NCBI RefSeq assembly: GCF_000372745.1
Contig: NZ_KB889675.1
Coordinates: 328,388 to 392,387, forward strand
Source: Embleya scabrispora DSM 41855
GTDB taxonomy: Bacteria; Actinomycetota; Actinomycetes; Streptomycetales; Streptomycetaceae
Direction: 5' to 3'
Length of the DNA: 64,000 nt
A program made the translations under genes and the position numbers. This document shows positions 42,111 to 60,804 of the stretch, piece after piece (positions within the stretch are counted from its first letter, which is position 1; each line of letters begins with the position of its first letter). The notes below the pieces were generated by a model. The model did not search any database and was not told where the DNA came from. It saw nothing but the letters and a program-made list of their open reading frames with translations.

Positions 42111-43697
42111 ATGTCTGTTTCACCCGCCTTCGCCGACACGTTGACCCGCCGCCGGCTCGTCCAGGGAATCGGCGCGGGCGCCGCCCTGCTCGGCCTCGCC
42201 GGATGCCGTTCGGCAGTGGATCAGGACAAGGCGGCGCCGGCCGGGGCACAGGCCGGGCCCAGGCGCGGCGGCACGCTCAAGGTCGCCACCCTCGCCGACC
42301 TGACGCCCGCCCTGCTGTTCACCCAGGGTCCGATCTTCAGCATCCATCGGCTGGTCTTCAACACCCTGACCCGCTACGCCCCCGGCGGGCTCGATCCACA
42401 ACCCGAACTGGCCACCGCGTGGCAGATCGCGCCCGACGGCAAGGCGATCACACTGACCCTGCGCGAGGACGTCACCTTCCACAACGGCCGCCCGTTCACC
42501 GCCGAGGACGTGGTGTTCGCGGTGCGCAACCTGCAGAACCCGCAGCGCAGCGCCCAGTTGCGGGCAACCGCGCTGGCCGTCACCGGCTTCGACATCGACT
42601 CGCCGCATCGGATCACGCTGCGACTCGCCCATCCCGTGACGAACATCTTCGACCTGTTCGAGTTCATGGTGATCTCCGCCAAGGAGTCGGTCGAGGACGC
42701 GGTGCTCGGCAGGAACGTGGTCGGCACCGGCCCGTTCGTATGGAAGACCTGGACCCCTGGCACCTCGCTGGTACTGGAACGCAACCCGAGGTACTGGGTG
42801 CCCGAGCGGCCCTATCTGGACGCGGTGGAGATCCGGGTGGTCCCGCAGCCGGACGCGCTGATCGCCTCGCTGCGCAGCGGCCAGAGCCACCTCGCCGCCG
42901 GCCTCGGCGGACGCGACATCGCGCCGCTGCGCGAGGACAAGGCGTTCAACCTGCGTGAGTACGACCAGGGTTCGGGCAACATCTACCTCGGCGTGAACAC
43001 CTCGGTCGCACCGCTGGACGACAAGCGGGTGCGCCAGGCGCTGTCCTTCGCGGTCAACCGCGATCGGATCGTCAAGCAGGCCCTGGGCGGCTACGGGCTC
43101 GCCTCGGCGGCGCCCTGGCCCAAGACCTCGCCGGTGTACACCGACGCGGACGCGAATCGGTACCCCTACGACCCGACCAGGGCCAAGGCGCTGCTGGCCG
43201 AGGCCGGCCACGGCGGCGGCCTGGACCTGCCGCTGGCGTTCTTGAGCACCGCCCCGGCGGTGGCCCAGATGGTGCAGTTCGACCTGGCCCAGGTCGGCGT
43301 CAAGACCACCCTCGAACCGCTGGACCCGGCCAAGTTCCAGGCCCAGTTGATCGCCCAGACGATGCCGGCCCTGTGGACCGGCACCCACGGCTTCGCGTCC
43401 AACCAGCCCGCCACGCTCGCGGTCAGCGCGTACCCGTTCAACGAGGCCAAGAACACCTCGAAGTTCACCGACCCGCAGTACACCGAGATCGTGCAACGCG
43501 CCTGGAACCAGACCGACGCACGCTCGGCCGCGGCCAAGGCCGCCTACGCCGAGCTGAGTCAGGCACTGCTGGACCGGCAGTTCATCATCGACCTCGCGGT
43601 GCTGACCAACGTGCAGCCGGCCACCGCGAATCTGCGCGATGTGCGACAGAACCGCTACAACGCGACCGTCCTCGACGACGCGTACCTGGCGGGCTGA
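42111..43697 (+). CDS. ABC transporter substrate-binding lipoprotein, family 5
   Basis: 528 residues from the ATG at 42111, with AGGAG upstream. The signal combines a Tat-like TRRRLVQG and a lipobox LLGLAGC, suggesting a Tat-exported lipoprotein. SBP_bac_5 features: TFHNGRPFTAEDVVFAV, VVGTGPFVWKTW and ALSFAVNRDRIVKQAL. The family binds peptides, nickel, or other ligands; the operon context suggests an organosulfate. It ends 3 bp before the first permease. Confidence 0.9.
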   Translation: MSVSPAFADTLTRRRLVQGIGAGAALLGLAGCRSAVDQDKAAPAGAQAGPRRGGTLKVATLADLTPALLFTQGPIFSIHRLVFNTLTRYAPGGLDPQPELATAWQIAPDGKAITLTLREDVTFHNGRPFTAEDVVFAVRNLQNPQRSAQLRATALAVTGFDIDSPHRITLRLAHPVTNIFDLFEFMVISAKESVEDAVLGRNVVGTGPFVWKTWTPGTSLVLERNPRYWVPERPYLDAVEIRVVPQPDALIASLRSGQSHLAAGLGGRDIAPLREDKAFNLREYDQGSGNIYLGVNTSVAPLDDKRVRQALSFAVNRDRIVKQALGGYGLASAAPWPKTSPVYTDADANRYPYDPTRAKALLAEAGHGGGLDLPLAFLSTAPAVAQMVQFDLAQVGVKTTLEPLDPAKFQAQLIAQTMPALWTGTHGFASNQPATLAVSAYPFNEAKNTSKFTDPQYTEIVQRAWNQTDARSAAAKAAYAELSQALLDRQFIIDLAVLTNVQPATANLRDVRQNRYNATVLDDAYLAG

Positions 43698-43700
43698 GCG

Positions 43701-44645
43701 ATGACCGGATATCTGCTGCGCCGACTGCCCTCGGCACTGCTCGTCCTGGTGCTCGCCTCGTTCGCGATCTTCGCCATCCTGCGGCTGATCCCGGGCGATC
43801 CGGCGACCACGCTCGCGGGCTCCGACCCCTCTCCCGACACGATCGCCGCGATCCGCGCCGACCTCGGGCTCGACCGGCCGTTCCTGGCCCAGTACTTCTC
43901 CTGGATCGGCGATCTGCTCTCCGGCGATCCGGGCCGGTCGTACCTGATCGGCGGGCAGATCACCGACCTGATCGGGGATCGGTTCGGCAACACCCTCGCA
44001 CTGGCGATCGGCGCCCTGGTGCTGATGCTGGTGCTCGGCCCGATCCTGGGCGTGCTCTGCGCCACCGCCCGAGGCCGTGTCCCGCGGGCACTGCTGGGCG
44101 CGGTCAACTCGGTGTCGCTGACCGTGCCGGTGTTCGTCACCGGGGTGCTGCTGGTGCTGCTGTTCGCGGTGACCTGGCGGCTGCTGCCGCCGGGTGGACA
44201 CCAGTCGATCGTGGCCGACCCGGTGATCGGGTTGCAGTACCTGGTGCTGCCCGCGCTGTGCCTGGCACTGCCCGGCTCCGCGGTGATCGCCCGCTACATC
44301 AAGGACGGAGTGCTCCAGGCGCTCGGCGAGGACTACGTGCGCACCGCCCGCTCGCTGGGCGTGTCCCGGCGGCGGATCCTGTGGCGACACGCGCTGCCCA
44401 ACGCCCTGCCACCGGTGCTGACCGTGCTCGGCATGCAGGTCGGCGCGCTGCTGGGCGGCGCGGTCGTGGTGGAGGCGCTGTTCGCCTGGCCGGGCCTGGG
44501 CCAGCTCGCCGAACAGGGCGTCGCCCGCCGTGACTACCCGGTGGTGCAGGCGCTGTTGTTGCTGCTCGTCGGGGTGTACGTGCTCGTCCAGTTGCTGACC
44601 GACATCGCCTACGCGCTGCTCGACCCGAGGGTGAGGCTGGGATGA
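43701..44645 (+). CDS. ABC transporter permease, DppB type
   Basis: 314 residues, about six membrane spans. It has the EAA-like loop EDYVRTARSLGVSRRRILWRHALPNALPPVLT that contacts the ATPase, and ILRLIPGDPATTL near the N terminus as usual for DppB-type permeases. It overlaps the next permease by 4 bp (ATGA). Confidence 0.92.
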   Translation: MTGYLLRRLPSALLVLVLASFAIFAILRLIPGDPATTLAGSDPSPDTIAAIRADLGLDRPFLAQYFSWIGDLLSGDPGRSYLIGGQITDLIGDRFGNTLALAIGALVLMLVLGPILGVLCATARGRVPRALLGAVNSVSLTVPVFVTGVLLVLLFAVTWRLLPPGGHQSIVADPVIGLQYLVLPALCLALPGSAVIARYIKDGVLQALGEDYVRTARSLGVSRRRILWRHALPNALPPVLTVLGMQVGALLGGAVVVEALFAWPGLGQLAEQGVARRDYPVVQALLLLLVGVYVLVQLLTDIAYALLDPRVRLG

Positions 44646-45508
44646 CCGCCGCGGTAGTCACCAAGGCGCCGGTGGTCGCCGCGCCCGCGAAGCGGGCTCG
44701 CAACCCCTATGTACAGGGCCTGCTCACGCCGCGCGGGATCACCGGGCTGATCGTGGTCGGCCTGGTGGTCCTGCTCGGCTTGGCCGCGCCGCTGCTGACC
44801 TCGTACGCACCCACCTTCCAGACCTCGAACGCGCTGCTGCAACCGAGCGGGGAACATCCGCTGGGCACCGACGAGATCGGCCGCGACCTGTGGTCGCGGG
44901 TGCTGTTCGGAATCCGCACCGACCTGATCGTGGTGGTGAGCGCGGTACCGCTGGGCGCGCTCGCGGGCTGCCTGCTCGCGCTGGTGTCGGTGGCGTCGCG
45001 CTGGGCCGACGTGCTCGTCCAGCGCCTGTTCGACGTGGTGCTCGCCTTCCCCGGACTGATCCTGGGCCTGACCGTGACCGCCGTCCTGGGCGCCGGCACA
45101 AGCACGGTGATCGTGGTGATCGCGGTGGTCGAGGCCCCCGCGTTCGGCCGCATGTTGCGCGGCGCGATCCTGTCCCACCGCGAGCGCGAGTACGCGTTGG
45201 CGGCCCGGGTCGGCGGCGCCGGACCGGCCCGGCTGCTGGTTCGGCACATCCTGCCCAACGCGGCCGACCCCCTGGTCGTGCAGATCGCGGTGTCGTTGTC
45301 GATCGCGGTGATCGTCGAGGGCGCGATGAGCTTCATCGGGATCGGCGTGCGCCCGCCGGAGCCCTCGCTCGGCTCGATCGTCAGCGGCTCGGTGATGCAC
45401 CTCCAGGACCATCCGATCTACGCCATCGGCCCGCTCGTCGCGATCAGCGCGTTCGTGCTGGGTCTGAACCTGCTCGCGGAAGCACTCAACAAGGGGGTCC
45501 GGCGATGA
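44642..45508 (+). CDS. ABC transporter permease, DppC type
   Basis: 288 residues, about six membrane spans. The motif HPLGTDEIGRDLWSRVLFGIRTDL is the DppC hallmark, and the EAA loop reads REYALAARVGGAGPARLLVRHILPNA. It overlaps the ATPase gene by 4 bp. It pairs with the DppB-type permease as a heterodimer. Confidence 0.92.
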   Translation: MTAAVVTKAPVVAAPAKRARNPYVQGLLTPRGITGLIVVGLVVLLGLAAPLLTSYAPTFQTSNALLQPSGEHPLGTDEIGRDLWSRVLFGIRTDLIVVVSAVPLGALAGCLLALVSVASRWADVLVQRLFDVVLAFPGLILGLTVTAVLGAGTSTVIVVIAVVEAPAFGRMLRGAILSHREREYALAARVGGAGPARLLVRHILPNAADPLVVQIAVSLSIAVIVEGAMSFIGIGVRPPEPSLGSIVSGSVMHLQDHPIYAIGPLVAISAFVLGLNLLAEALNKGVRR

Positions 45509-47328
45509 CCGTCACGATCGACAAGCCCGCCGAAGTCCGCGCCGCCATCCCACTGCTGGCGGCACACGACCTGCGGGTGGTGTTCGACTCGGCCCGCGGC
45601 CCGGTGCACGCGGTGCGCGGCGTGGACCTGGACCTGGCCGCCGGCGAAATGCTCGGCATCGTCGGCGAGTCCGGCTCCGGCAAGTCCACGACCGCGCTCG
45701 CACTGGCCCGCATGTTGCCGCCCGCGGGCCGGATCACGGGCGGATCGGTGCTGCTGGACGGCGACACCGACCTGGTCGCGGCCTCCGAGGCGGCGCTCAC
45801 CGGGGTACGCGGGCGGCGGATCGGCATGGTCTTCCAGGACCCGATGACGTCGCTGAACCCGCTGCTGACAGTGCGCCGACAACTGGACGAGGCGCTGCGC
45901 GCGCACGGGTTCGGCGACCGCGGGGCGCGCCGGGCCCGCTCGATCGAGCTGTTGGAGCTGGTCGGCATCCCGGGTGCCCGGCTGCGCGGCTACCCGCACC
46001 AGTTCTCCGGCGGCATGCGTCAGCGGGTGATGATCGCGCTGGCCCTGGCCAACCGACCCGACGTGCTGATCGCGGACGAGCCGACCACCGCGCTGGATCC
46101 GACCGTGCAGGCGCAGATCCTGGAGTTGCTGGACACGCTGCGCCGCGAACTGGGCACCGCAGTGCTGCTGATCACGCACAACATGGGCGTGGTCGCCGAG
46201 CGCTGCGACCGGGTCGCGGTGATGTACGGCGGCCGGGTGGTCGAACAGGGTCCGGTCGCCGAAGTGCTCAGCGCGCCCCGACACCCGTACACCGCCGGGC
46301 TGTTGCGCGCGGTGCCGCGTCTGGACACGCCCGCCGGCACCCGGCTCGCGGGTATCCCCGGCACACCGCCGGACCTGGCGCTGCCGGTGCTCGGCTGCGC
46401 GTTCGCAAACCGGTGCACCGCGGCCGTCGACCGGTGCCGAACCGAGCAACCGGACCTGGCCCCGGTCACCGACACCGCGCGGACCGCGTGCTGGGTGCCA
46501 TCGACCGAGGCATCGGCTCACCCGCTCGAACCGATCGTGCGCAGGGCGCCGGATCCGACCTCGCCGGTGCTCGAAGTGAGCGGCGTGTCCAAGACGTTCC
46601 GCTCCCGGGGGCGGCCGGCGGTCTCCGCGCTGACGGACGTGGACCTGGTGCTGTATCCGGGCGAGACGCTCGGCGTCGTCGGCGAGTCGGGCTCGGGCAA
46701 GTCCACCCTGGCCCGGGCGATCGTCGGCATCCACAAACCCGATCGCGGCGTGATCCGGGTGGCCGGCAAGGGCCGGCTCGCCCGCGAGGTGCAGATGGTC
46801 TTCCAGGACCCGTACGCCTCGCTCAACCCCAGGATGACGGTCGGCGACATCGTCGCCGACCCGCTGCACGCCCAACACATCGGCACACCGCTGGAACGCC
46901 GGGCACGAGTACTGGAGTTGCTGGAGCGCGTCGGCCTGGATCCGGCCGTCGCCTCCCGCTTTCCCCGCGACTTCTCCGGCGGGCAGCGGCAACGGATCGG
47001 CATCGCCCGGGCGTTGGCACCGGCGCCCTCGGTGCTGATCTGCGACGAGGCGGTCTCCGCGCTGGACGTCTCGGTGCAGGCGCAGGTGGTCAACCTGCTC
47101 GCCGAACTCCAGGCCGATCTGGGCCTGGCGCTGCTGTTCATCGCCCACGACCTCGCGGTGGTGCGCTCGATCAGCCACCGGATCGTGGTGCTGCGCGAGG
47201 GCCGCGTGGTGGAGACCGGCCCGGCCGACGATCTGGTCGCGCATCCGCAGGACCCCTATACGAAGGCCCTGTTGGCCGCCGTCCCCTCCCCCGTTCCGGC
47301 CGCCATGCGCGCGGCCGAGGCAGCCTGA
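45505..47328 (+). CDS. Fused double ATPase of the oligopeptide-type ABC importer (DppD-DppF)
   Basis: 607 residues with two complete ABC modules. First module: Walker [11 protein letters not shown], signature FSGGMRQR, Walker [10 protein letters not shown]. An oligopeptide/dipeptide C-terminal region with clustered Cys ([15 protein letters not shown]) follows. Second module: [28 protein letters not shown]. Fusion of the two is common in actinobacteria. It is followed by the sulfatase after 11 bp. Confidence 0.93.
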
Positions 47329-47339
47329 AGGAGCGTCAC

Positions 47340-49655
47340 ATGTCCATCCCCGACGAGCGACACCGGGATCCGTACGAGGGCTTCGGGGGTCGGGTCGGCC
47401 GCACCTTCTCCGCCTCCGAGCCGGCCTGGCCACAGCCGCGTTCGGCCCGCCCGGGCGCGCCGAACGTGGTCGTGGTGCTGATCGACGACATGGGCTACAG
47501 CGACATCGGCCCGTTCGGCTCGGAGATCCCCACCCCGACCCTGGACCGACTCGCCGAGCGGGGCCTGCGGCTGACGAACTATCACACGATGCCGCTGTGC
47601 TCGCCCGCCCGCGCGGCGCTGTTGACCGGGCTGAATCCGCACCGGGTCGGCTACGCGATGGTGGCCAACGCCGATCCCGGCTTCCCGGGCTACGGCATGG
47701 AGATCGCGGACGACATCCCGACCCTGCCGCAGACCCTGCACGACGCGGGCTACGCGACCTTCGCGGTCGGCAAGTGGCACCTGGTGCGCGACTCGGCGTC
47801 CAACGCGGCCGACCATCGCGGCAACTGGCCGCTGCAAAAGGGCTTCGACCAGTACTACGGCGTCCTGGAGGGCCTGACCAGCCTGTTCCATCCGCATCAA
47901 CTGGTACGCGACAACTCGCCGTTGGACATCGACGAACTACCGAAGGACTACTACTACACGGACGACATCACCGATCAGGCGATCGGGATGATCAAGGGCC
48001 TGCGCGCACACGACCAGGACAAGCCGTTCTTCCTCTATGTCGCGCACAACGCGGTGCACGGTCCGTTGCAGGCGAAGGCCGCGGACATCGCGGCGCAGCA
48101 GGGCCGCTACGACCGGGGCTGGGACGTGCTGCGCGAGGAGCGCTTCGCCCGGCAGAAGGCGGCCGGCCTGTTCGAGCCGGGCACCCGGCTGCCCCGGCGC
48201 AACTTCGAGGCCGGGCAGGAGGTGGGCGCCTGGGCCGACCTGGATCCGCAGACCCGGCGGTTGTACGCGCGGTACATGGAGGTCTACGCGGGCATGGTCG
48301 CCAGCATCGACCACAACCTGGGCCGGCTGGTGGACACCCTGGAGGCGCTCGGCGAGTTGCACAACACCGTCATCGTGTTCACCTCGGACAACGGCGGAAC
48401 CGGCGAGGGCGGCGCGGAGGGCACCCGCGCCTACTTCAAGCGGTTCAATCAGCACCCGGCCAAGCCCGCCGACTGGCGCGGCGACATCGACCTGGACCTG
48501 GACCTGATCGGCGGCCCGCGCAGCCTGATCCACTACCCGCGCGGCTGGGGCATGGCCTCGAACACGCCGTTTCGGCTGTACAAGGGTCAGACCTACGCGG
48601 GCGGGGTGCGGGTGCCGTTCGTCATCTCGTGGCCGGCCGGGTTGCGCGAGCACGGGGTGCGGCAGCAGTACCAGTACGTCACCGACGTGCTGCCCACGCT
48701 GCTCGACCTGGCCGGCGTGCCGGTTCCGGTGGAACGGGCGGGCGCGCCGACGCAGGAGTTGGACGGGACCTCGTTCACCGACGTGCTCGCGGATCCGGCG
48801 GCCCCATCGCGGCACGGCGAGCAGTACAGCGAGATGGTCGGCAATCGCAGCTATTACCGGCACCCGTACAAGCTGGTGACGCACCACCGGGCCGGCGACG
48901 CGTACGACGACGCGGAGTGGGCGCTGTACGACATCACCACGGACCCGACCGAGATCGACGACCTGGCCGACCGGCACCCGGACGTGGTCGAGGAGTTGGC
49001 CGCCGCGTGGGAGGCGGCGGCGTGGCGCAACGGAGTGTTCCCGCTCGCCGACGGCGGCGCGCTCGCGCTGCGCGGGCCGGCCGAGGAGCGGCTGCGCCGG
49101 CCGGTGCGGTTGCTCGCGGGCACACCGGAACTGGAGCGCTATCGCTCGGCGAAGCTGATCACGTTCCGGGACTTCGAGGTGCTCATCGAACTGGGCCGGC
49201 GCGGGGCCGCCGATCAGGGCGTGCTCGTCTCGCACGGCGATCAGGGCGGCGGTTACAGCGTCTATGTCGAAGCCGGCCGGTTGCACTTCGCCTACAACGA
49301 GTACGGCGAACTGCACGAGGTGGACGCCGGCGAACTGGCCCCGGACGCCCGGGTGGTGACGCTGACCGCACACGCGCGCCCGCACTTTCGCTGGGACTTC
49401 CGGGTCGGGGTGGACGGCGAGGACGTGGCCTGGCTGGAGGGCGTGCACATCCTGATCGGGATGGCCCCGCTCCAGGGGATCAGCGTCGGCGTCGACCGCA
49501 AGTCCCCGGTGTCCTGGCCGCTCTGGGAACGCCACGGCTCCTTCCGCTACACCGGCGAACTGACCGCGGTCACCTACACGCCGGGCCCACCGGCGCCGTA
49601 CGACCCGGAGACGGTCGTGCGCGCGCTGCGCGAGGCGGCGGCCACGTTCGAGTAG
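47340..49655 (+). CDS. Type I (formylglycine) sulfatase, cytoplasmic
   Basis: 771 residues with AAGGAG upstream of ATG 47340. Sulfatase signature CSPAR at residues 87-91: the Cys is converted to formylglycine. Metal-binding LIDDMGYSDIG lies near residue 48 and TSDNGGTGEGG supplies later ligands. Length fits mycobacterial-type arylsulfatases. No signal peptide is visible, so it should act inside the cell on imported sulfate esters. No maturase gene (FGE) is in the window. Confidence 0.92.
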   Translation: MSIPDERHRDPYEGFGGRVGRTFSASEPAWPQPRSARPGAPNVVVVLIDDMGYSDIGPFGSEIPTPTLDRLAERGLRLTNYHTMPLCSPARAALLTGLNPHRVGYAMVANADPGFPGYGMEIADDIPTLPQTLHDAGYATFAVGKWHLVRDSASNAADHRGNWPLQKGFDQYYGVLEGLTSLFHPHQLVRDNSPLDIDELPKDYYYTDDITDQAIGMIKGLRAHDQDKPFFLYVAHNAVHGPLQAKAADIAAQQGRYDRGWDVLREERFARQKAAGLFEPGTRLPRRNFEAGQEVGAWADLDPQTRRLYARYMEVYAGMVASIDHNLGRLVDTLEALGELHNTVIVFTSDNGGTGEGGAEGTRAYFKRFNQHPAKPADWRGDIDLDLDLIGGPRSLIHYPRGWGMASNTPFRLYKGQTYAGGVRVPFVISWPAGLREHGVRQQYQYVTDVLPTLLDLAGVPVPVERAGAPTQELDGTSFTDVLADPAAPSRHGEQYSEMVGNRSYYRHPYKLVTHHRAGDAYDDAEWALYDITTDPTEIDDLADRHPDVVEELAAAWEAAAWRNGVFPLADGGALALRGPAEERLRRPVRLLAGTPELERYRSAKLITFRDFEVLIELGRRGAADQGVLVSHGDQGGGYSVYVEAGRLHFAYNEYGELHEVDAGELAPDARVVTLTAHARPHFRWDFRVGVDGEDVAWLEGVHILIGMAPLQGISVGVDRKSPVSWPLWERHGSFRYTGELTAVTYTPGPPAPYDPETVVRALREAAATFE

Positions 49656-52565: not shown

Positions 52566-52862
52566 GCCATCTCCTGATCGCATCGGAATCGACTCGCCAA
52601 ACGAGCCGAGGAACCCGCACGCAACCAGTATGCGCCGAATACATACCATTCGTGCCGATCGGGCTGAATGAGGCAATGGCGTGGATCAGGTGCGAGGGAT
52701 CGCCTCGGCGCCTATATCGCATCATTTGGACGGCCGTCTCACAAGGGCCACAGCGGTTCCGCCGAACGGCCCGGCCGGCATGCACACGCACCGAGACGGG
52801 ATTCGAGCCCGCGTGGCAGGATCGCCCGTACATCGGGGAGGGCACCGTCGGGAGGGGGCGCG
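52566..52862. other. 297-bp divergent intergenic region (phhA / dynamin cluster)
   Basis: This gap separates phhA (-) from the dynamin-like operon (+) and must hold both promoters. The end carries two purine-rich runs (GGGGAGG near 52835 and GGAGGGGG near 52851), the second being the ribosome-binding site. No other conserved element is recognised. Confidence 0.4.
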
Positions 52863-54908
52863 GTGGTGGATTCTCGCGGCATGGCCGGGGATCGTTCGAA
52901 ACGACGCGACGTGGTCGAGGCACTCACCGAGACCTCCGACCACCTCGACTTCGCACTCGCCATGGTCCGCCGCATCGTCGGCGACCAGGAGCGACTGACA
53001 CAGCTGACCGAACGCATCCGCGAGATCGAGACGCGACTGCGCGACGACCGGTACTACCTCGCCGTGATCGGCGAATTCTCGGCAGGCAAGAGCACGTTCA
53101 TCAACGCGCTCCTGACCGAGGACCTGTTGCCCACCTCGGCGCTGCCCACCACGGGCGCCGCGACCAGGATCACCTACGGTGACGAGTTCGCCGTCGAGGT
53201 GCGCTTCCACGGCGACGGGATCCGCTACGTCTACCCCTCCGGGCGCTACACCGGCGCGGCCAGTCCGCTCGGCCGGATGCTCGCGCATCTCGCCCCGGAC
53301 GTGGCCGTTCCCGACGACACGGCCGGCATCCTGCGGCTGCTCACCGCCGACGACACGATCGCGCCGCGCGTACAGAGCCTGGAGGTCCGCCATCCCGCCG
53401 ACGCGCTGCGCGACGGGTTGGTGATCATCGACACACCCGGCACCAACGCCCGCGTCGGACACACCGAGATCACCCGCGCGGTGATGCGCGACATCGCCGA
53501 CGTCGCGGCGGTGCTCACCGCGTCCACGTCGCCCTCGCCGGTGTCGTTGGCCGAGTTCCTGACCGACGCGCTCGACCCCGGCCAACTGCGCCGCTGCATC
53601 GTCCTGGTCACCAAGATGGACCACATCGACGAGGACGAGCGGGAGGACCTGCTCGCGCACGTACGGCAGCGCTTCGCCCGGATGTTGGGCGTGACCGACC
53701 CGGTGGTCGAGCCGGTCGCCGCCGAGCCGGTGGTCCGGCTCGCCTCCGGACGGCCCCTGCGCGGGCCGGAACAGGCCCACTGGGCCGAGGAGTTCCCCCG
53801 CACGCTGGCCCGACTTCGGGACCTGATGCAGCGTCAGCGCATCGTCGCGGTATCCGACCACCTGCTGCGGCTCCTGGAGGACCTGCTCGACGAACTGCGC
53901 CGCGAGGTGACTCTCGCCGAGCAGCGGCTGGACGCCGAGGACGCCGAACTCGCAGGCGCCCGGATCGCCGACATGGCCGCATTCGTCCGGGCCCAACACG
54001 GCGAGACCGCGCGCCTGCTGGGCGCCGGCGCCCAGCGCGCGCAGCAGGCGGTCGGCGGCATGGCCCCCCAGTGGTGGCGCTACACCCAGGCCGAGATCGA
54101 CCACGCGCTGGACGGTGCGGAGACCCCGGACGAACTGCGCGCGGTGATCGCGGTCCGCGCGCCCGAACTGATCCGACAGGGCCTGCCCCGGATCGGCGAC
54201 ATCGTGCAGCAGGCCGTCACCGGCGCGCTGGCCACCGCCGCCGAGAGCGCACGGGCGGCCGCGGACACCGCGTTCGAGGCGGCGTATCGCAAGCTCGGCG
54301 CGATCCATCGCCCGGCCGGACCGGACCGGGTCACCGTGCTGACCGGGCATCAACTCGCGGACGCGGCGATGCGCGCCTATCAGGATTCGGTCACCGGGGT
54401 CACCCAGCAGATCCGCGCCGTCCGACTCGACCCGGCCGGCCCGCGCACCCCCGGCGCGCGGATCGGCGGCGCGCTGGACCAGTGGTTCGGCGGCGCCCGA
54501 AACGGCGACCCGGGGGCGTCCTCCGGCCGGGCCGGCTTCGCCGGATTCATGGCCAAAGTGGCCGATTCACTCTCATCCACTGACATGACGGCTCTGCGGA
54601 ACCGCGCACGGGCCGAAATGCATCAGACACTGCGAACCGTCGCGGACGGTTTGTCCCGACAGATCGACGAGGCCGTCGGCACGGCCACGACGCACTATTC
54701 GCTGGACGTCTCGCAACACGTGGACCGCTACCGGGCCAGGTACGAGGCGACGGTCGCCGAACTGGTGGCCGAGCATCACCGCCGTGAGGATATTCTCGCG
54801 GCTCGCAGAAGCCTGTTGCAGGACGCGGACAGGCAGACGGAACGGCGCCGCGACACGGTGAACAACCAGCGCGAGCGCCTCACACGCCGGGGGGAATTCG
54901 GCAGATGA
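52863..54908 (+). CDS. Dynamin-like GTPase 1
   Basis: 681 residues from GTG 52863, preceded by GGAGGGGG; GTG 52866 and ATG 52881 are alternatives. P-loop GEFSAGKS at residues 70-77, switch Thr in LPTTGAATRI, G3 DTPGTN, G4 TKMD. A long helical stalk-like region follows. No clear membrane helix or paddle is seen, unlike the two relatives downstream. First gene of a four-gene cluster, overlapping the next gene by 4 bp. Confidence 0.88.
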   Translation: MVDSRGMAGDRSKRRDVVEALTETSDHLDFALAMVRRIVGDQERLTQLTERIREIETRLRDDRYYLAVIGEFSAGKSTFINALLTEDLLPTSALPTTGAATRITYGDEFAVEVRFHGDGIRYVYPSGRYTGAASPLGRMLAHLAPDVAVPDDTAGILRLLTADDTIAPRVQSLEVRHPADALRDGLVIIDTPGTNARVGHTEITRAVMRDIADVAAVLTASTSPSPVSLAEFLTDALDPGQLRRCIVLVTKMDHIDEDEREDLLAHVRQRFARMLGVTDPVVEPVAAEPVVRLASGRPLRGPEQAHWAEEFPRTLARLRDLMQRQRIVAVSDHLLRLLEDLLDELRREVTLAEQRLDAEDAELAGARIADMAAFVRAQHGETARLLGAGAQRAQQAVGGMAPQWWRYTQAEIDHALDGAETPDELRAVIAVRAPELIRQGLPRIGDIVQQAVTGALATAAESARAAADTAFEAAYRKLGAIHRPAGPDRVTVLTGHQLADAAMRAYQDSVTGVTQQIRAVRLDPAGPRTPGARIGGALDQWFGGARNGDPGASSGRAGFAGFMAKVADSLSSTDMTALRNRARAEMHQTLRTVADGLSRQIDEAVGTATTHYSLDVSQHVDRYRARYEATVAELVAEHHRREDILAARRSLLQDADRQTERRRDTVNNQRERLTRRGEFGR

Positions 54909-56017
54909 GCGACTACACGCACGACGACGACCTGTTCGCGATGGTCTCCGACGACACCATCGACACGCTGGACACCGCCGACGGGGGCACTGTCGCGGCA
55001 CCACTGTGGGAGACCGACGCGGGCGGCGAGAGCAACGGCGGTACCTACCCCAACTCCACTCTGCCGTACACCGACCCGAACTTCGATCCGCTCAACGACC
55101 CGAACTACGACCCGTTCCACGCGGACAGCGACGGTGACGGCCGGATCGACGCGTACGACCCGCACATGTTCGACCCCAACGACAACAACGAGCCCGTCGC
55201 CACGCCCAGTCAGCAGTGGTACGACGACCAGGTCGCCAACGACCCGTACGGCGATCCCTATGGCGACCCGTACGCGGACCCCTACGGCGACCCGTACGGC
55301 ACCGACCCGTACGAGCCGCAGGGCAACGACCCGTACGCGGACCCGGCGAGCCACCCCGGCACGGGCAACACCGAGCCCGGCGTCCCGGCCGCGTGGGGCG
55401 CGGTCCCCGACGACCAGGGCAACTGGGAGTACCACGCGCCGGGCAACTGGACGCCGGCGCAGTTCGACGGTTTCGGCGACCCGGTCGGCGACGCGCAGTA
55501 CTGGCAGCAGCAGGTCAGCCCGACCAGCTGCGCGGTGGTCTCCCAGGGCATGATCCTGGAGAAGCTCACCGGCGTGCCGCTGGACGAGAACGCGCTGATG
55601 ACCGAGGCCCAGCAGGCCGGCATCTACGACCCCGAGAACGGCACCAGAACCGACGACATCGGCAAGCTGCTCGAGATGCACGGCGTGGACACCGACATGG
55701 TGCCGGGCGCCGACATGCGGCAGATGCTCGACGCGCTGGAGAAGGGCGACCAGGTCATCGTCGCGCTGGACGCGCAGGAGATCTGGTCCCCGATGCAGGA
55801 CCCGGCCACCGGTGCGCCGATGGAGCAGGACCCCACGATGGGACACGCCGTGTGGGTCACCGGCATCGACACCCAGCCCGACGGCTCGGTCTACGTCCTG
55901 CTCAACGACCCGGGCGCGCCGTTCGGCCAGACCGAGCCGGTTCCGCTGGCGGACTTCGTCAACGCGTGGCAGGACCGGGACACCACGATGATCGTCGCCC
56001 ACCCGACGCACGCCTGA
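54905..56017 (+). CDS. C39-like papain-fold peptidase-like protein with DPYG repeats
   Basis: 370 residues, no signal peptide. The N-terminal half is acidic and repetitive: a DxDxDG calcium-type loop (DSDGDGRIDAYD, about residues 77-88), then DPYGDPYGDPYADPYGDPYG (about 116-135). The C-terminal half is a C39-like domain: YWQQQVSPTSCAVVSQ with Cys209, GHAVWVTGID with His314, and LLNDPG with Asn334/Asp335. The triad looks complete. Coupled to dynamin-like gene 1 by a 4-bp overlap. Confidence 0.75.
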   Translation: MSDYTHDDDLFAMVSDDTIDTLDTADGGTVAAPLWETDAGGESNGGTYPNSTLPYTDPNFDPLNDPNYDPFHADSDGDGRIDAYDPHMFDPNDNNEPVATPSQQWYDDQVANDPYGDPYGDPYADPYGDPYGTDPYEPQGNDPYADPASHPGTGNTEPGVPAAWGAVPDDQGNWEYHAPGNWTPAQFDGFGDPVGDAQYWQQQVSPTSCAVVSQGMILEKLTGVPLDENALMTEAQQAGIYDPENGTRTDDIGKLLEMHGVDTDMVPGADMRQMLDALEKGDQVIVALDAQEIWSPMQDPATGAPMEQDPTMGHAVWVTGIDTQPDGSVYVLLNDPGAPFGQTEPVPLADFVNAWQDRDTTMIVAHPTHA

Positions 56018-56060
56018 TCGTTCGACATCACAACGGATTCGATGGGAGTAGGGAGAACAC

Positions 56061-58802
56061 ATGTCGTTCGATCGTGAACACGTGCTGCGCCAGGCCGCAC
56101 AGGTACAGCCGCGCCGACGCCCGGGCGTCGCGGGCCTGTTGAGCGGGATCCACCGCAGCGACGAGCTGCGCGGCTGGGTCACCATGGAATCGGTGGCGCT
56201 GCCGCCGGTGCCCGAGCGAACCGCGAACGGCTGGACGCTGTGGAGCCTGATCGGGGTCGGCAAGGCCACCCCGGGGCGCCGCGAACTGCCGATCCACCCC
56301 GTGTGGGGCGCGGTCCAGTGGGCCTGGCCGTCCGAGGACGTGCTGCGGCACGTGAAGCTGACCGAGCTGCCCGAGGTCGCCAAGTCGATCGAGAGCACGA
56401 TCGGGGACGAGGCCGCCTGGTCGCTGTCCATGCAGCCGGAGGCGCTGGCCGAGCGGGCCCGCTTCTTCCAATCGCTCGGCCGCTTCCTGGCCGACCCCGA
56501 CGCGGACGCGAAGGGCGGCCCGAAGATCCTGGCCGGCCTCTACGCGCGGGTGATGCCCAGCGGTGCGGTGGCCGCGTACCACCACCTCGTGCCGAGCACG
56601 GCGTCGTGGCTGCGCGCCGGTGCGCCGCGTGAGGCGGCCGCGCGCCGCGACTCGGGCGACTCGCCCACCGGCCGACCCGGCCCGTCGGGGCAGACGGCGG
56701 ACCGGAGGCAGGCCCCGGCTCCGGGTCCGCGCCCGGCGGGCGACGCTTCGGCTGTTCCGGGGCCGAACCCGGGCTGGGCGGGTCGCCTCGCGGGCGGCCC
56801 GTCCGGCGCGGGTGGCCCGGGTGGGTCCGGCGGGTCGGGTGGGTCGACGCCGGTCGCGTCGCCACCGGCCGCGCGGGTGCCGCAGGCCGCGCCGGTGGCG
56901 CAGGTCGCCGCGCCTGCGCCGCCGGCCCCGCGTACGCCTGTCACCCCGTCCGTCACCCCCGCCGGCGCGCCGGCCGCCCCCTCGTCCGCGCCGACCCCGC
57001 CCGGATCGGTGACCAGCCTGGTCAAGCAGGCGCCGTCGGCGACCACGCTCGGCCGGCGGATCAACGACGCGCAGGCGATCGCCGGCGACTTCGGTCTGGA
57101 CGCCATCGCCGCCGAACTGGACCGGTTGCGGGCCCGGATGCGCCGGCCCGGGCTGCGGATCGCGGTGGTCGGCGAGTTCGGCCGCGGCAAGTCGTCGCTG
57201 ATCAACCGGCTGCTCGGCGCCCCGGTGCTGCCCGAGGGTCGGCACACCCCGGTGCCCCTGGTGATCGCCGCCGGGCCGGAGCCGCGCCTGGAGTTGCAGT
57301 TCGCCGACGGGCGGGCCGAACCCAGGCCGGCGGTGTCCGCGTCGTGGGACGAGATACACCGGCTGAGTGAGCGTGAGGATGCGGACCAGGCCCGGTTGGT
57401 CGGCGTTCGCGTGCTCGTCGCCGACTCCGAGCTGGCCCGGCTGGACGTCGAGTTGGTGGACACGCCCGGCGTCAATGCCGGGCGCGGCAAGGGCACGGAC
57501 GCCGAGGAGCACGACCGCAGGACCGAGGACCTGGTCCGGCGCACCGTCGCGGCCAGTGACGCGGTGCTGATGGTGGTTTCCGCGAGCGCGCCGCTCGGCC
57601 TGTCCGAGACCGCGTTCCTGGAGGAGGAGGTGATCGCCCGGCACGTGCCGCGGATCACCGTGGTGGTGTCCAAGCTGGACACCGTCGACGAGGACGAGCG
57701 CGAGGACATCGTCGACTACCTCGGCGGCCGGGTGCGTCGCATCTCGCCGACCCTGCAGGTGCTGGCCGGCCCGCATCGCGAGGACGTCTCGCCGGTGGCC
57801 GGCGTGTTCGAGCGCATCACCGAGTACACCACCTCCGGCGGTCGGCGCAGCATGCGCTCACGGCAGACCGCGGGCCAACTGCTCTCATTGCTCGACGAGA
57901 TGGCCCAGGTGGGCCGGGACGGCCTGGCCGCGGCCGAACTCGGTGCGGCCGAACGGCGGCGCGCCGTCGAGCAGTCCGAGGTGGAGATCGACCGGATGTC
58001 CGCCGAGTGGGGCAAGGTCCGGGTCGAACTCCAGCAGCGGCGCACGCAGACCGCGGAGAAGTTCCGCGAGCACCTCCAGCTCTCGCGCGGCGACCTGTTG
58101 GACACGCTGCGCTACGAGATGGAGCGCGCGCCGGACCCGCGGACCTGGTGGGAGCGCGATCTGCCGTTCCGGCTGCGCCGCGAACTCACCGCGCTGGCCA
58201 AGAAGTTCGAGGCCCAGCTGCACTCCAGCGTGCAGGCCGACGTGCAGTGGCTGGACGCGAAGATGAAGCTGCACTTCGGACGCGGCAGCGGATACCGGCT
58301 GGAGAAGGTCGAGCAGTTGTCCACCGAGTTCGAACTCGGCGAGGCGGAGTCGCTGGGCCTGAAGGACCTCAAGAGCCGCAAGCTCGCCTGGCGGATCGGC
58401 CCGACCGGCCTCGCCGTGCTCGGCGCGCTGCTGATCCCGCTCACCGGCGGCGTCTCCGCGCTGCCGATGGGCGCGAGCATGGCCGCGTCGGCGGGCGGCA
58501 TGGTGCTCGGCGAGGTCAAGTCGACATCGCTGACCGAGGGTCAGCGCGCGCAGGCGATGAAGGTTTTGGAGCCGATGGTCGAGGAGGTGCTCGGCGGCTT
58601 CTCCGAGGAGGTCTCCAAGCGCCTGCACACGCTGTACGCCGGGGTGATGGACGAGGCGGTGCGCGGCCAGAAGGCGTGGCGGACCGATCGGCAGACCGCG
58701 CTGGCCAAGGTCGGCACCGATGGACCCGCATGGCAGGATCTCATCTCGCGCAGCGAGCAGCTCGGGGTCCAGCTCAACACCATGCTGGGCGCCAGAGGCT
58801 GA
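56061..58802 (+). CDS. Dynamin-like GTPase 2 with novel N-terminal domain
   Basis: 913 residues from ATG 56061, with GGGAG upstream. Residues 1 to about 190 form a domain I do not recognise; about 195-320 is a Pro/Ala/Gly linker. The GTPase domain has P-loop GEFGRGKS (371-378), G3 VDTPGVN and G4 VSKLD. A hydrophobic segment (TGLAVLGALLIPLTGGVSALPMGAS, about 780-805) looks like a membrane-inserting paddle. It follows the C39-like gene by 43 bp. Confidence 0.85.
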   Translation: MSFDREHVLRQAAQVQPRRRPGVAGLLSGIHRSDELRGWVTMESVALPPVPERTANGWTLWSLIGVGKATPGRRELPIHPVWGAVQWAWPSEDVLRHVKLTELPEVAKSIESTIGDEAAWSLSMQPEALAERARFFQSLGRFLADPDADAKGGPKILAGLYARVMPSGAVAAYHHLVPSTASWLRAGAPREAAARRDSGDSPTGRPGPSGQTADRRQAPAPGPRPAGDASAVPGPNPGWAGRLAGGPSGAGGPGGSGGSGGSTPVASPPAARVPQAAPVAQVAAPAPPAPRTPVTPSVTPAGAPAAPSSAPTPPGSVTSLVKQAPSATTLGRRINDAQAIAGDFGLDAIAAELDRLRARMRRPGLRIAVVGEFGRGKSSLINRLLGAPVLPEGRHTPVPLVIAAGPEPRLELQFADGRAEPRPAVSASWDEIHRLSEREDADQARLVGVRVLVADSELARLDVELVDTPGVNAGRGKGTDAEEHDRRTEDLVRRTVAASDAVLMVVSASAPLGLSETAFLEEEVIARHVPRITVVVSKLDTVDEDEREDIVDYLGGRVRRISPTLQVLAGPHREDVSPVAGVFERITEYTTSGGRRSMRSRQTAGQLLSLLDEMAQVGRDGLAAAELGAAERRRAVEQSEVEIDRMSAEWGKVRVELQQRRTQTAEKFREHLQLSRGDLLDTLRYEMERAPDPRTWWERDLPFRLRRELTALAKKFEAQLHSSVQADVQWLDAKMKLHFGRGSGYRLEKVEQLSTEFELGEAESLGLKDLKSRKLAWRIGPTGLAVLGALLIPLTGGVSALPMGASMAASAGGMVLGEVKSTSLTEGQRAQAMKVLEPMVEEVLGGFSEEVSKRLHTLYAGVMDEAVRGQKAWRTDRQTALAKVGTDGPAWQDLISRSEQLGVQLNTMLGARG

Positions 58803-58830
58803 GCAGCCGTCGAGGAGGGGAGCGTTCAGG

Positions 58831-60804
58831 GTGGACAGGGGTCACGGGGCGGCCGATGGGGCCTACGCGGGTTACGGCGCGTGGCGCGCACGGCAGGAGA
58901 CCCTGGTCGGCCTGATCGACCGGCTCACGCCGATCGTGGCCGGACTGCGGATCGGTGCGGGCGTCAAGAAGTTGGACTCGTTGAAGCAGCGGGCCGCGTC
59001 CGAGGCGTTCAAGGTGATGATCGTCGGCGAGTTCAAGCGCGGCAAGAGCACGGTGATCAACTCGATGCTCGGCGAGAAGGTGCTGCCCTCCTTCGCGCGT
59101 CCGTGTACGGCGATCATCAACGAGGTGACGTGGGGTGACACCCGCTCGGCGCTGATCTATCCGCTGGAAGCGGACGGCACGCCGGGCGATCCGCTGACCG
59201 TCGGCGTGGACGAGATCGCCGACTACGTCACGATCGGCGCGGACGACGACAACACCCCGAACCCGTACGAGCGGGCGGTGGTGCGCTGGCCGCTCGAACT
59301 GTGCCGCAACGGCGTCGTGGTGGTCGACTCGCCGGGCCTCAACGAGGCTCCCGAGCGTGAGAAGGTCACCCTGAACTACCTCGAACAGGCCGACGTGCTG
59401 GTGTTCGTGGTGGACTGCCAGGCCGCGATGTCGCGCAGCGAACAGCTCTTCCTGGACGTGCACGTCAAGGCGCGCGGGCACGAGGACGTGTTCTACGTCG
59501 GCAACAAGATCAACCTGGTCGAGGAGGAGGAGCGCGAGGACGTGCAGCGGGAGATCCGCAAGCGCCTCTCGCCCTACCTCTCCCGCCCGGACCGGGTCTT
59601 CTTCGTCAACGCCCGGGCCGCGCTGACCGGCCGGCAGAAGGGCGACCCGGACCTGCTGGCGGGCTCCGGAATGCCCGAACTCGAGCGTGGTCTGGAGGAC
59701 TTCCTGACCCGCGAGCGCGGTCGGGCCAAGATCCTGTCGCCCGCGCGGGAACTCAAGTACCTGCTGATCGAGGCGCGCGAGCAGATCGACCGCAAGGAGG
59801 CGCTCCTGACCCAGGACGTCGAGGAGCTGCGGGCCACCTACGAACGGGTCCAGGGTCCGCTGACCCGGCTGGAGCAGAATCGGCGGGTGATCGTCGCGCA
59901 GATGGAGGAGCACCTGCGCGAGACCCGCGGCGAGGTGGAGGCCGCGACCCGGCGGTTCATGGAGCGGGTCGCCGCGAACATCCCGAACTGGGCGCAGGAG
60001 TACGACCCGAGCAACACCATCGGCGCCAATCCGTTCAACGCCCGGGAGAAGATGGAGGCGGCGGTCAAGGAGATCACCGACCACCTCTCCGGACGGGTCC
60101 AGGTCGAGTTCGCGCAGTGGCAGGAGAACGAGCTCAAGCCGCTCGTCGCACGTCGCGTCGAGGACATGGAGCGGATGATCGACGACGACGTGAAGCAGTT
60201 CGTCACCCGCATCGACGAGATCCGCGCATCGCTCACCGCCGGCCCGGTCGGCACCGACGAGGACGGCAAACCCTCGACGCCGATCGAGCGGCTGCTCGCG
60301 GACGCGGTCAGCTTCGTGCTCGACCCGGCGACCGCGGTCTCCGGCGGCAAGTTCAACCTCAGGTCGATGCTCACCGCCCTGCTGCCGCAGATCGCGGTCG
60401 GCACGGCGGCCTTCCTGGTCGGCCTGGGCCCGTTCGTGATCCTCGGCGCGGTGCTCGGCTCGACCGTGTTCAAGGGCGCGCTGCAGTTGAACAAGGCCAA
60501 CCGCCGGCTCAAGGAACAGGTCGCCGAGCAGGTCCAGGTGGAACTGCGCAACCAGGCCGACACCGACGTGACCAACCTGGGCGAAGAGGTGGTCAAGCAA
60601 CTCCGCAAGATGCGCGACGCGATCGCCCAGGGCCTGGACGCGGAAATCAAGTCGATCCGCGACGAGGTGGGCGCAGCCCTACGCACGAAGGAACAGGGCG
60701 AGTCCGACGCGAAACGCGAAAGCACCGAAATGCGCCGCTACGCCCAAGAACTCAACCGAGTCGACGAGTCCCTGGCCGACCTGATCATGGACGTGGCAAT
60801 GTAA
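58831..60804 (+). CDS. Dynamin-like GTPase 3
   Basis: 657 residues from GTG 58831, with GAGGAGGGG upstream. P-loop GEFKRGKS (66-73), G3 VDSPGLNE, G4 NKIN rather than NKxD. A hydrophobic hairpin QIAVGTAAFLVGLGPFVILGAVLG lies near residues 518-545, typical of membrane-active bacterial dynamins, followed by a coiled-coil-rich C terminus. It is 28 bp after gene 2 and ends the cluster. Confidence 0.88.
   Translation: MDRGHGAADGAYAGYGAWRARQETLVGLIDRLTPIVAGLRIGAGVKKLDSLKQRAASEAFKVMIVGEFKRGKSTVINSMLGEKVLPSFARPCTAIINEVTWGDTRSALIYPLEADGTPGDPLTVGVDEIADYVTIGADDDNTPNPYERAVVRWPLELCRNGVVVVDSPGLNEAPEREKVTLNYLEQADVLVFVVDCQAAMSRSEQLFLDVHVKARGHEDVFYVGNKINLVEEEEREDVQREIRKRLSPYLSRPDRVFFVNARAALTGRQKGDPDLLAGSGMPELERGLEDFLTRERGRAKILSPARELKYLLIEAREQIDRKEALLTQDVEELRATYERVQGPLTRLEQNRRVIVAQMEEHLRETRGEVEAATRRFMERVAANIPNWAQEYDPSNTIGANPFNAREKMEAAVKEITDHLSGRVQVEFAQWQENELKPLVARRVEDMERMIDDDVKQFVTRIDEIRASLTAGPVGTDEDGKPSTPIERLLADAVSFVLDPATAVSGGKFNLRSMLTALLPQIAVGTAAFLVGLGPFVILGAVLGSTVFKGALQLNKANRRLKEQVAEQVQVELRNQADTDVTNLGEEVVKQLRKMRDAIAQGLDAEIKSIRDEVGAALRTKEQGESDAKRESTEMRRYAQELNRVDESLADLIMDVAM

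Follow-up and report, generated by a model that had tools for sequence, protein, structure and literature searches.

Four adjacent genes of Embleya scabrispora DSM 41855 encode three different dynamin-like proteins (DLPs) and one protein with a C39-like, papain-type fold, and their order recurs in both Actinomycetota and Cyanobacteriota. The genes were studied in a stretch of 64,000 nucleotides of contig NZ_KB889675.1 (assembly GCF_000372745.1, positions 328,388 to 392,387), referred to here as the window, in which all four lie on the plus strand between positions 52863 and 60804. The structural and comparative case that this cluster is a conserved module, belonging with the bacterial multi-dynamin operons, is firm. 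We further propose, with a probability of roughly one half, that the four genes specify a single conserved heterotypic three-dynamin membrane machine, in which the C39 protein would be docked through the N-terminal domain (NTD) of the second dynamin, DLP2, as a regulatory subunit.

Gene order and the three GTPases

The first gene, DLP1 (52863..54908; 681 amino acids (aa)), begins with a GTG at 52863 in a start context that is also kept in E. hyalina. A 4-bp overlap, ATGA at 54905-54908, joins it to the gene for the C39-like protein (54905..56017; 370 aa). DLP2 (56061..58802; 913 aa) follows after a gap of 43 bp, and DLP3 (58831..60804; 657 aa) after a further 28 bp. A sequence-only reading of the window had given these gene positions, P-loops, overlap, and spacings and had assigned membrane segments to the second and third GTPases only. 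The four same-strand open reading frames (ORFs) were found as it described, and hydropathy shows no such segment in DLP1.

The order DLP1-C39-DLP2-DLP3 is kept at one chromosomal site in 4/4 Embleya and 3/3 Yinghuangia genomes tested; in genome G003 the copy is divided between contigs L027 and L074. A search of 54 other genomes of Embleya's family did not find the C39 gene. An alignment of the C39 protein was then scanned against 84,980 genomes, which uncovered relatives in cyanobacteria at 52% identity. The same four-gene order, at other sites, is present in Anabaena sp. CRKS33 (L082) and in two further cyanobacterial genomes (L119 and L120), and Sphaerospermopsis (L081) carries a variant order, C39-DLP2-DLPx-DLP3. 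Because one order is shared by all seven genomes of two genera and by three cyanobacteria, the grouping is not a product of chance, and the genes for C39 and the three GTPases belong together as a genuine, conserved unit. By profile, the C39 family occurs in 8/386 cyanobacterial, 8/396 actinobacterial, and 1/398 pseudomonadotal genomes, and these low counts mark it as rare and patchy. Far from almost never co-occurring with DLPs, the non-secreted C39 subfamily has DLP genes beside it or within ~7 kb in ~10 of 13 separate lineages by our count. Secreted C39-like proteins with signal-peptide-like N-termini, from a mycobacterium-like genus (L126-L134), have no DLPs near them.

All three GTPases exceed the Pfam cut-off of 27 bits for Dynamin_N (PF00350), with scores of 79.4 for DLP1, 75.0 for DLP2, and 92.9 for DLP3. 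Each has a G1 P-loop and a G3 D-x-P-G motif (GEFSAGKS and DTPG in DLP1, GEFGRGKS and DTPG in DLP2, GEFKRGKS and DSPG in DLP3); the G4 motifs, for which the canonical form is [NT]KxD, read TKMD, SKLD, and NKIN, respectively. DLP3 is BDLP1-like: it also matches the bacterial dynamin helical domain PF21808 at 78.5 bits and aligns with Nostoc BDLP over nearly its full length (E=1e-32). Hydropathy places a paddle segment at residues 521-539 of DLP3 (60391..60447) and a paddle-like segment at residues 783-801 of DLP2 (58407..58463). DLP1 of Embleya and Yinghuangia lacks a hydrophobic segment, whereas cyanobacterial DLP1 has one.

In a tree of 48 DLP proteins, many of whose rows are of unusual composition, members from Actinomycetota and Cyanobacteriota unite in one DLP1 clade (support 100/99) and one DLP2 clade (100/100); the DLP3 clade across both phyla is less well supported (89/76). 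One cross-phylum clade for each position indicates that DLP1, DLP2, and DLP3 are three old co-travelling paralogues rather than recent duplicates. Between the window and E. hyalina, the ratio of nonsynonymous to synonymous substitution rates (dN/dS) is 0.04 for DLP3, 0.20 for DLP1, 0.22 for DLP2, and 0.40 for C39, as compared to 0.11 for HemW. By these ratios, all four genes are under purifying selection, and C39 is the variable part of the module. The value for DLP3 fits a core physiological role better than a fast arms race.

The cluster occupies a core chromosomal region between a phenylalanine-hydroxylase-like gene (PAH) and hemW, neighbors that we take to be such by sequence recognition. 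A nearly invariant leader (52812..52865, plus strand; n=4 Embleya genomes) lies directly upstream of the DLP1 start and is a probable 5' control region. In Yinghuangia, tandem runs of two to five lipoprotein-like paralogues, transcribed divergently, stand between PAH and DLP1 (L021 1513-5931, L022 13564-15182, L023 13163-16993); Embleya has none there. Elsewhere in the window, a stretch of ~8 kb that includes a peptide ABC transporter-like operon (42111-49655) is absent at the matching place in E. hyalina (L019) and in G002 (L020).

The C39-like protein, the DLP2 domain, and triads without C39

The C39 protein consists of an acidic, low-complexity N-terminal region (54905..55429) followed by the C39-like domain (55427..56014), for which the evidence comes from alignments of 7 and 10 homologues and from a structure model. 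The isolated domain passes PF13529 (Peptidase_C39_2) at 28.4 versus 24 bits, although a Pfam search with the whole protein, including the acidic tail, gave no match to this family. An AlphaFold2 model of the domain (pLDDT 89, pTM 0.87) has the papain/C39 fold. Its best matches among solved structures are Alr0975, a phytochelatin-synthase-like enzyme (Z 18.2), the C39-like protein 3erv (16.5), and the ComA peptidase domain (15.8). Neither a signal peptide nor a transmembrane (TM) segment was seen by sequence or hydropathy. The acidic region holds 39 D/E versus 1 K/R, DPYGDPYADPY repeats, and one DSDGDGRIDAYD calcium-loop-like motif. A strongly acidic N-terminal half is shared by DLP-linked C39 proteins (20-75 D/E, with 0-4 K/R in most and 9 in G777). 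The DxDGDG calcium-like motif was considered as a general feature of these tails and set aside, as it is limited to Embleya and Anabaena 90.

Homologue alignments identify a candidate catalytic triad of Cys209 (codon 55529-55531), His314 (55844-55846), and Asp335 (55907-55909). Cys209 and His314 are present in the Embleya and cyanobacterial proteins, and the complete Cys-His-Asp set is found in C39 of Embleya, cyanobacteria, Streptomyces caniscabiei, and Nitrosomonas. In 3/3 Yinghuangia orthologues, the catalytic Cys and His are both missing: SCAV at the Cys site is replaced by NTPL, NSPL, or APLA, and GHAVW at the His site by GSVW, SSVW, or NTVW. The Asp and much of the domain persist, and both the ORF and its 4-bp overlap with DLP1 are kept, a pattern that suggests a non-catalytic role. 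Because Yinghuangia lost both residues yet kept the gene, proteolysis cannot be the essential, conserved function of C39 and was rejected as such; at best, some members may have it as an activity. The suggestion of the sequence-only reading that membrane remodelling is under proteolytic control is hence unsupported in that form. Some transporters have C39-like domains that lack the catalytic Cys and only bind substrate.

A second line of evidence concerns DLP2, in which ~185 extra residues (56061..56630) precede a Pro/Ala/Gly-rich linker (56631..57080) and the GTPase domain. This NTD is conserved in cyanobacterial DLP2. It is present in 11/11 triads with C39 and in 0/7 triads without it, the latter all from Streptomycetaceae (Fisher p=3e-5 by locus; p=0.03 with related loci merged to lineages). 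Separate NTD proteins also occur near C39. On the Anabaena 90 plasmid pANA01 (L086), a 187 aa homologue lies directly after C39 (E=1e-5), and in S. caniscabiei (L084) a 195 aa NTD-like protein lies one gene from C39 (E=9e-18, far above 200 shuffles), a score obtained after the L086 protein had joined the NTD profile. This correlation leads us to propose that the NTD could be the docking site for C39. The confident NTD structure model (pLDDT 84) gave no PDB match at E<=0.001 or Z>=5, although a missing match is no proof of a new fold. GG pairs occur in the Embleya DLP2 linker, and the Yinghuangia linker has none. As general cleavage sites these motifs were discarded, because cyanobacterial linkers are short and without GG, though their C39 is intact; they are retained as a lead only.

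A DLP2 profile was searched in 395 Streptomycetaceae genomes. Full DLP2 is present in 14, comprising the seven Embleya and Yinghuangia genomes and seven others. In 7/7 of the others, DLP1, DLP2, and DLP3 are accompanied by a cyclase-like gene and a convergent CRP-like gene (L066 5943-13975; L067 5594-13826; L192, L193, L194, L195, and L196/L197). A small two-TM-like, PycTM-like protein is present in 6/7 and was not called in G1423, in which DLP1 is on another contig. These streptomycete small proteins match the PADLOC PycTM model weakly; the related protein at L072 is unambiguously a PycTM (PF18967). D...YS and GDG motifs can be seen in the cyclase-like protein, but its identity as a cyclase was not accepted, as the resemblance is motif-like only, with no Pfam match and a best PDB profile match to a cyclase at E=0.3. 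The same dynamin engine seems to occur with either of two accessory modules, and the seven loci are a possible dynamin-linked Pycsar-type system, of a kind not found described in the literature searched.

Looser associations of the same components occur as well. C39, DLPs, and an Hsp70-family gene stand together in S. caniscabiei, on Anabaena 90 plasmid pANA01, and on Rhodococcus plasmids (L087 and L088), and a Nitrosomonas metagenome-assembled genome (L085) combines C39 and DLPs without Hsp70. In cyanobacteria and actinobacteria, an Hsp70-family gene, and often C39 in addition, accompanies DLP pairs on plasmids as well as on chromosomes (L086, L087, L088, L084, L070, and L072). Plasmids yielded no full triad of the Embleya type, only the C39, DLP, and Hsp70 variants of Rhodococcus and Anabaena 90, and phage sequences gave no match for the C39 protein. 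Two other plasmids carry dynamin genes in different settings. Lysinibacillus plasmid pFN9B has another three-dynamin operon with long tree branches, one product of which is 999 aa (L090 3876-10542), and an Aphanizomenonaceae TIOX110 plasmid has a dynamin gene near CRISPR cas1/cas2 (L089 355-8899).

Proposed mechanism and competing explanations

Our studies allow us to outline how such a machine might work. DLP3 and DLP2 would insert in the membrane through their hydrophobic paddles, with DLP1 acting as a soluble partner in Embleya. C39, made by translation coupled to that of DLP1, would dock on the DLP2 NTD, and the three GTPases would form a hetero-oligomer. The role of C39 would be mainly one of binding and regulation, governing the assembly or membrane loading of the GTPases, and a C39 with an intact Cys-His pair may additionally cleave a partner. 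The machine could serve to seal membranes or to monitor an envelope under stress, perhaps when phages attack. Several observations weigh against this scheme. Embleya DLP1 has no membrane segment of its own. Solo C39 genes exist in three cyanobacterial copies (L121, L122, and L123) with no DLPs nearby. C39 of Rhodococcus and Nitrosomonas is near DLPs with no detectable NTD, so the pairing of C39 with the NTD is not universal. Finally, the Yinghuangia pseudo-C39 evolves fast (domain dN/dS 0.46-0.69), which could reflect decay instead of a retained role. A broader and more tentative proposal is that one three-dynamin engine accepts interchangeable inputs, either C39 with the DLP2 docking domain in Embleya, Yinghuangia, and cyanobacteria or a Pycsar-like cyclic-nucleotide cassette in other Streptomycetaceae. 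The C39 fold would then be a regulator able to forgo proteolysis, its catalysis having been lost in one genus. In the triads with the cassette, it can be tested directly whether cyclic-nucleotide signalling is linked to membrane remodelling.

A proteolytic switch, in which cutting of a DLP by an active C39 peptidase, for instance within the DLP2 linker, activates or releases the membrane machine, would account for the complete triad outside Yinghuangia, for the structural proximity to Alr0975 and C39 peptidases, and for GG pairs that occur in the Embleya linker and not in that of Yinghuangia. We consider it unlikely as the main function, because Yinghuangia kept the operon despite losing both catalytic residues, because the cyanobacterial linkers offer no GG to an intact C39, and because a Gly-rich composition predicts GG pairs anyway. 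It is far less probable still that C39 is a chance neighbor, a gene accidentally inserted in a DLP operon. The solo C39 genes would be expected on that account, but the identical order in distant phyla contradicts it. Even at a generous rate of 4% per locus, 6/9 independent C39 loci near DLPs would have p=3e-7, and the actual figure is the ~10/13 given above.

The triad could be an immune effector against phages, with the C39-NTD or cyclic-nucleotide module as alternative sensors, an idea to which we give perhaps one chance in four. The cyclase-like, PycTM-like, and CRP-like genes of the seven related triads point in this direction, as do other DLP/C39 loci on plasmids or near CHAT or caspase-like genes, the patchy distribution over phyla, and the population-level phage resistance conferred by Bacillus subtilis DynA (PMC8844932). 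Against it, the site of the cluster in Embleya and Yinghuangia, between PAH and hemW, is a stable core region, selection constrains DLP3 more tightly than HemW, and none of the window genes flanking the cluster was recognized as another defense gene; the streptomycete small proteins resemble PycTM only weakly, and no Pfam family fits the cyclase-like protein. The phage-defense link raised by the sequence-only reading is circumstantial, through the Pycsar-like genes beside related triads. A housekeeping role in septation or sporulation, comparable with that of Streptomyces DynA/DynB, is improbable. The very low dN/dS of DLP3 would suit it, as would the vertical inheritance of the cluster at a single site in two genera of filamentous bacteria. 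Embleya, however, already has a separate, more divergent DLP pair (contig C69, positions 123114 and 124705), a relative of a pair found in several Streptomycetaceae genera (51% to L144; an ssb-like gene adjoins the pair in G007). This pair is probably the DynA/DynB counterpart, which makes the septation link that had also been raised less likely for the cluster. In addition, the triad occurs in cyanobacteria, which do not sporulate in that way.

Comparison with known dynamin systems

No description of a module combining dynamins and C39 was found in the open-access literature, in agreement with the earlier claim that no system of this composition had been described, and its novelty is provisional within that scope. 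Bacterial DLPs usually work as heterotypic pairs, and multicomponent complexes have been proposed for cyanobacteria (PMC6104087). Campylobacter Cj-DLP1/2 resemble the Embleya cluster in being heterotypic DLP partners from one operon, with a role in membrane tethering, but they are two DLPs that form a 2:2 tetramer, and no C39 or NTD is described for them (PMC6104087). Streptomyces DynA/DynB are actinobacterial DLP partners too, but are two DLPs of the divisome (PMC8748795). The Embleya relative of the Streptomycetaceae pair lies outside the cluster, for which no orthology with that pair was found. The mycobacterial IniBAC operon, to our knowledge, is without a C39 protein and has IniB as its third gene. 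No IniB model was among the profile matches of the cluster proteins, and it is unconfirmed whether the libraries hold one. IniBAC is an operon with DLPs tied to envelope stress (PMC6715688, PMC5760070), and IniA mediates membrane fission (PMC6715688).

The accessory components can be compared in the same way. The C39 domains of peptidase-containing ABC transporters such as ComA and PCAT1 have the same papain/C39 fold (Z ~15-16), whereas Embleya C39 is a soluble, separate protein with an acidic tail and no transporter. Pycsar couples a cyclase to a PycTM effector, and PycTM-like and cyclase-like genes accompany the related DLP triads; beside the window cluster, no cyclase or effector gene was recognized, and PADLOC gave no PycC or PycTM match for its four proteins. 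Nostoc punctiforme BDLP1 (PDB 2J68/2J69/2W6D) is like DLP3 in combining a GTPase domain, a helical domain, and a paddle, but it is not described within a three-DLP/C39 unit in the literature examined. The nearest three-gene dynamin unit is LeoABC of enterotoxigenic Escherichia coli, in which three adjacent dynamin-related genes are proposed to act jointly (PMC4159319), and PADLOC LeoA/LeoBC models match DLP1-3. LeoABC differs in that LeoB and LeoC are halves of one DLP and that no C39 or NTD is described (PMC4159319). The Embleya GTPases show no such split; all are full length (657-913 aa), each with its own G1 and G3. Known bacterial dynamin systems are mostly pairs, and a cross-phylum unit of three paralogues, with its papain-fold partner and a DLP domain whose occurrence follows that of this partner, is a candidate for both a multi-component dynamin complex and its regulator.

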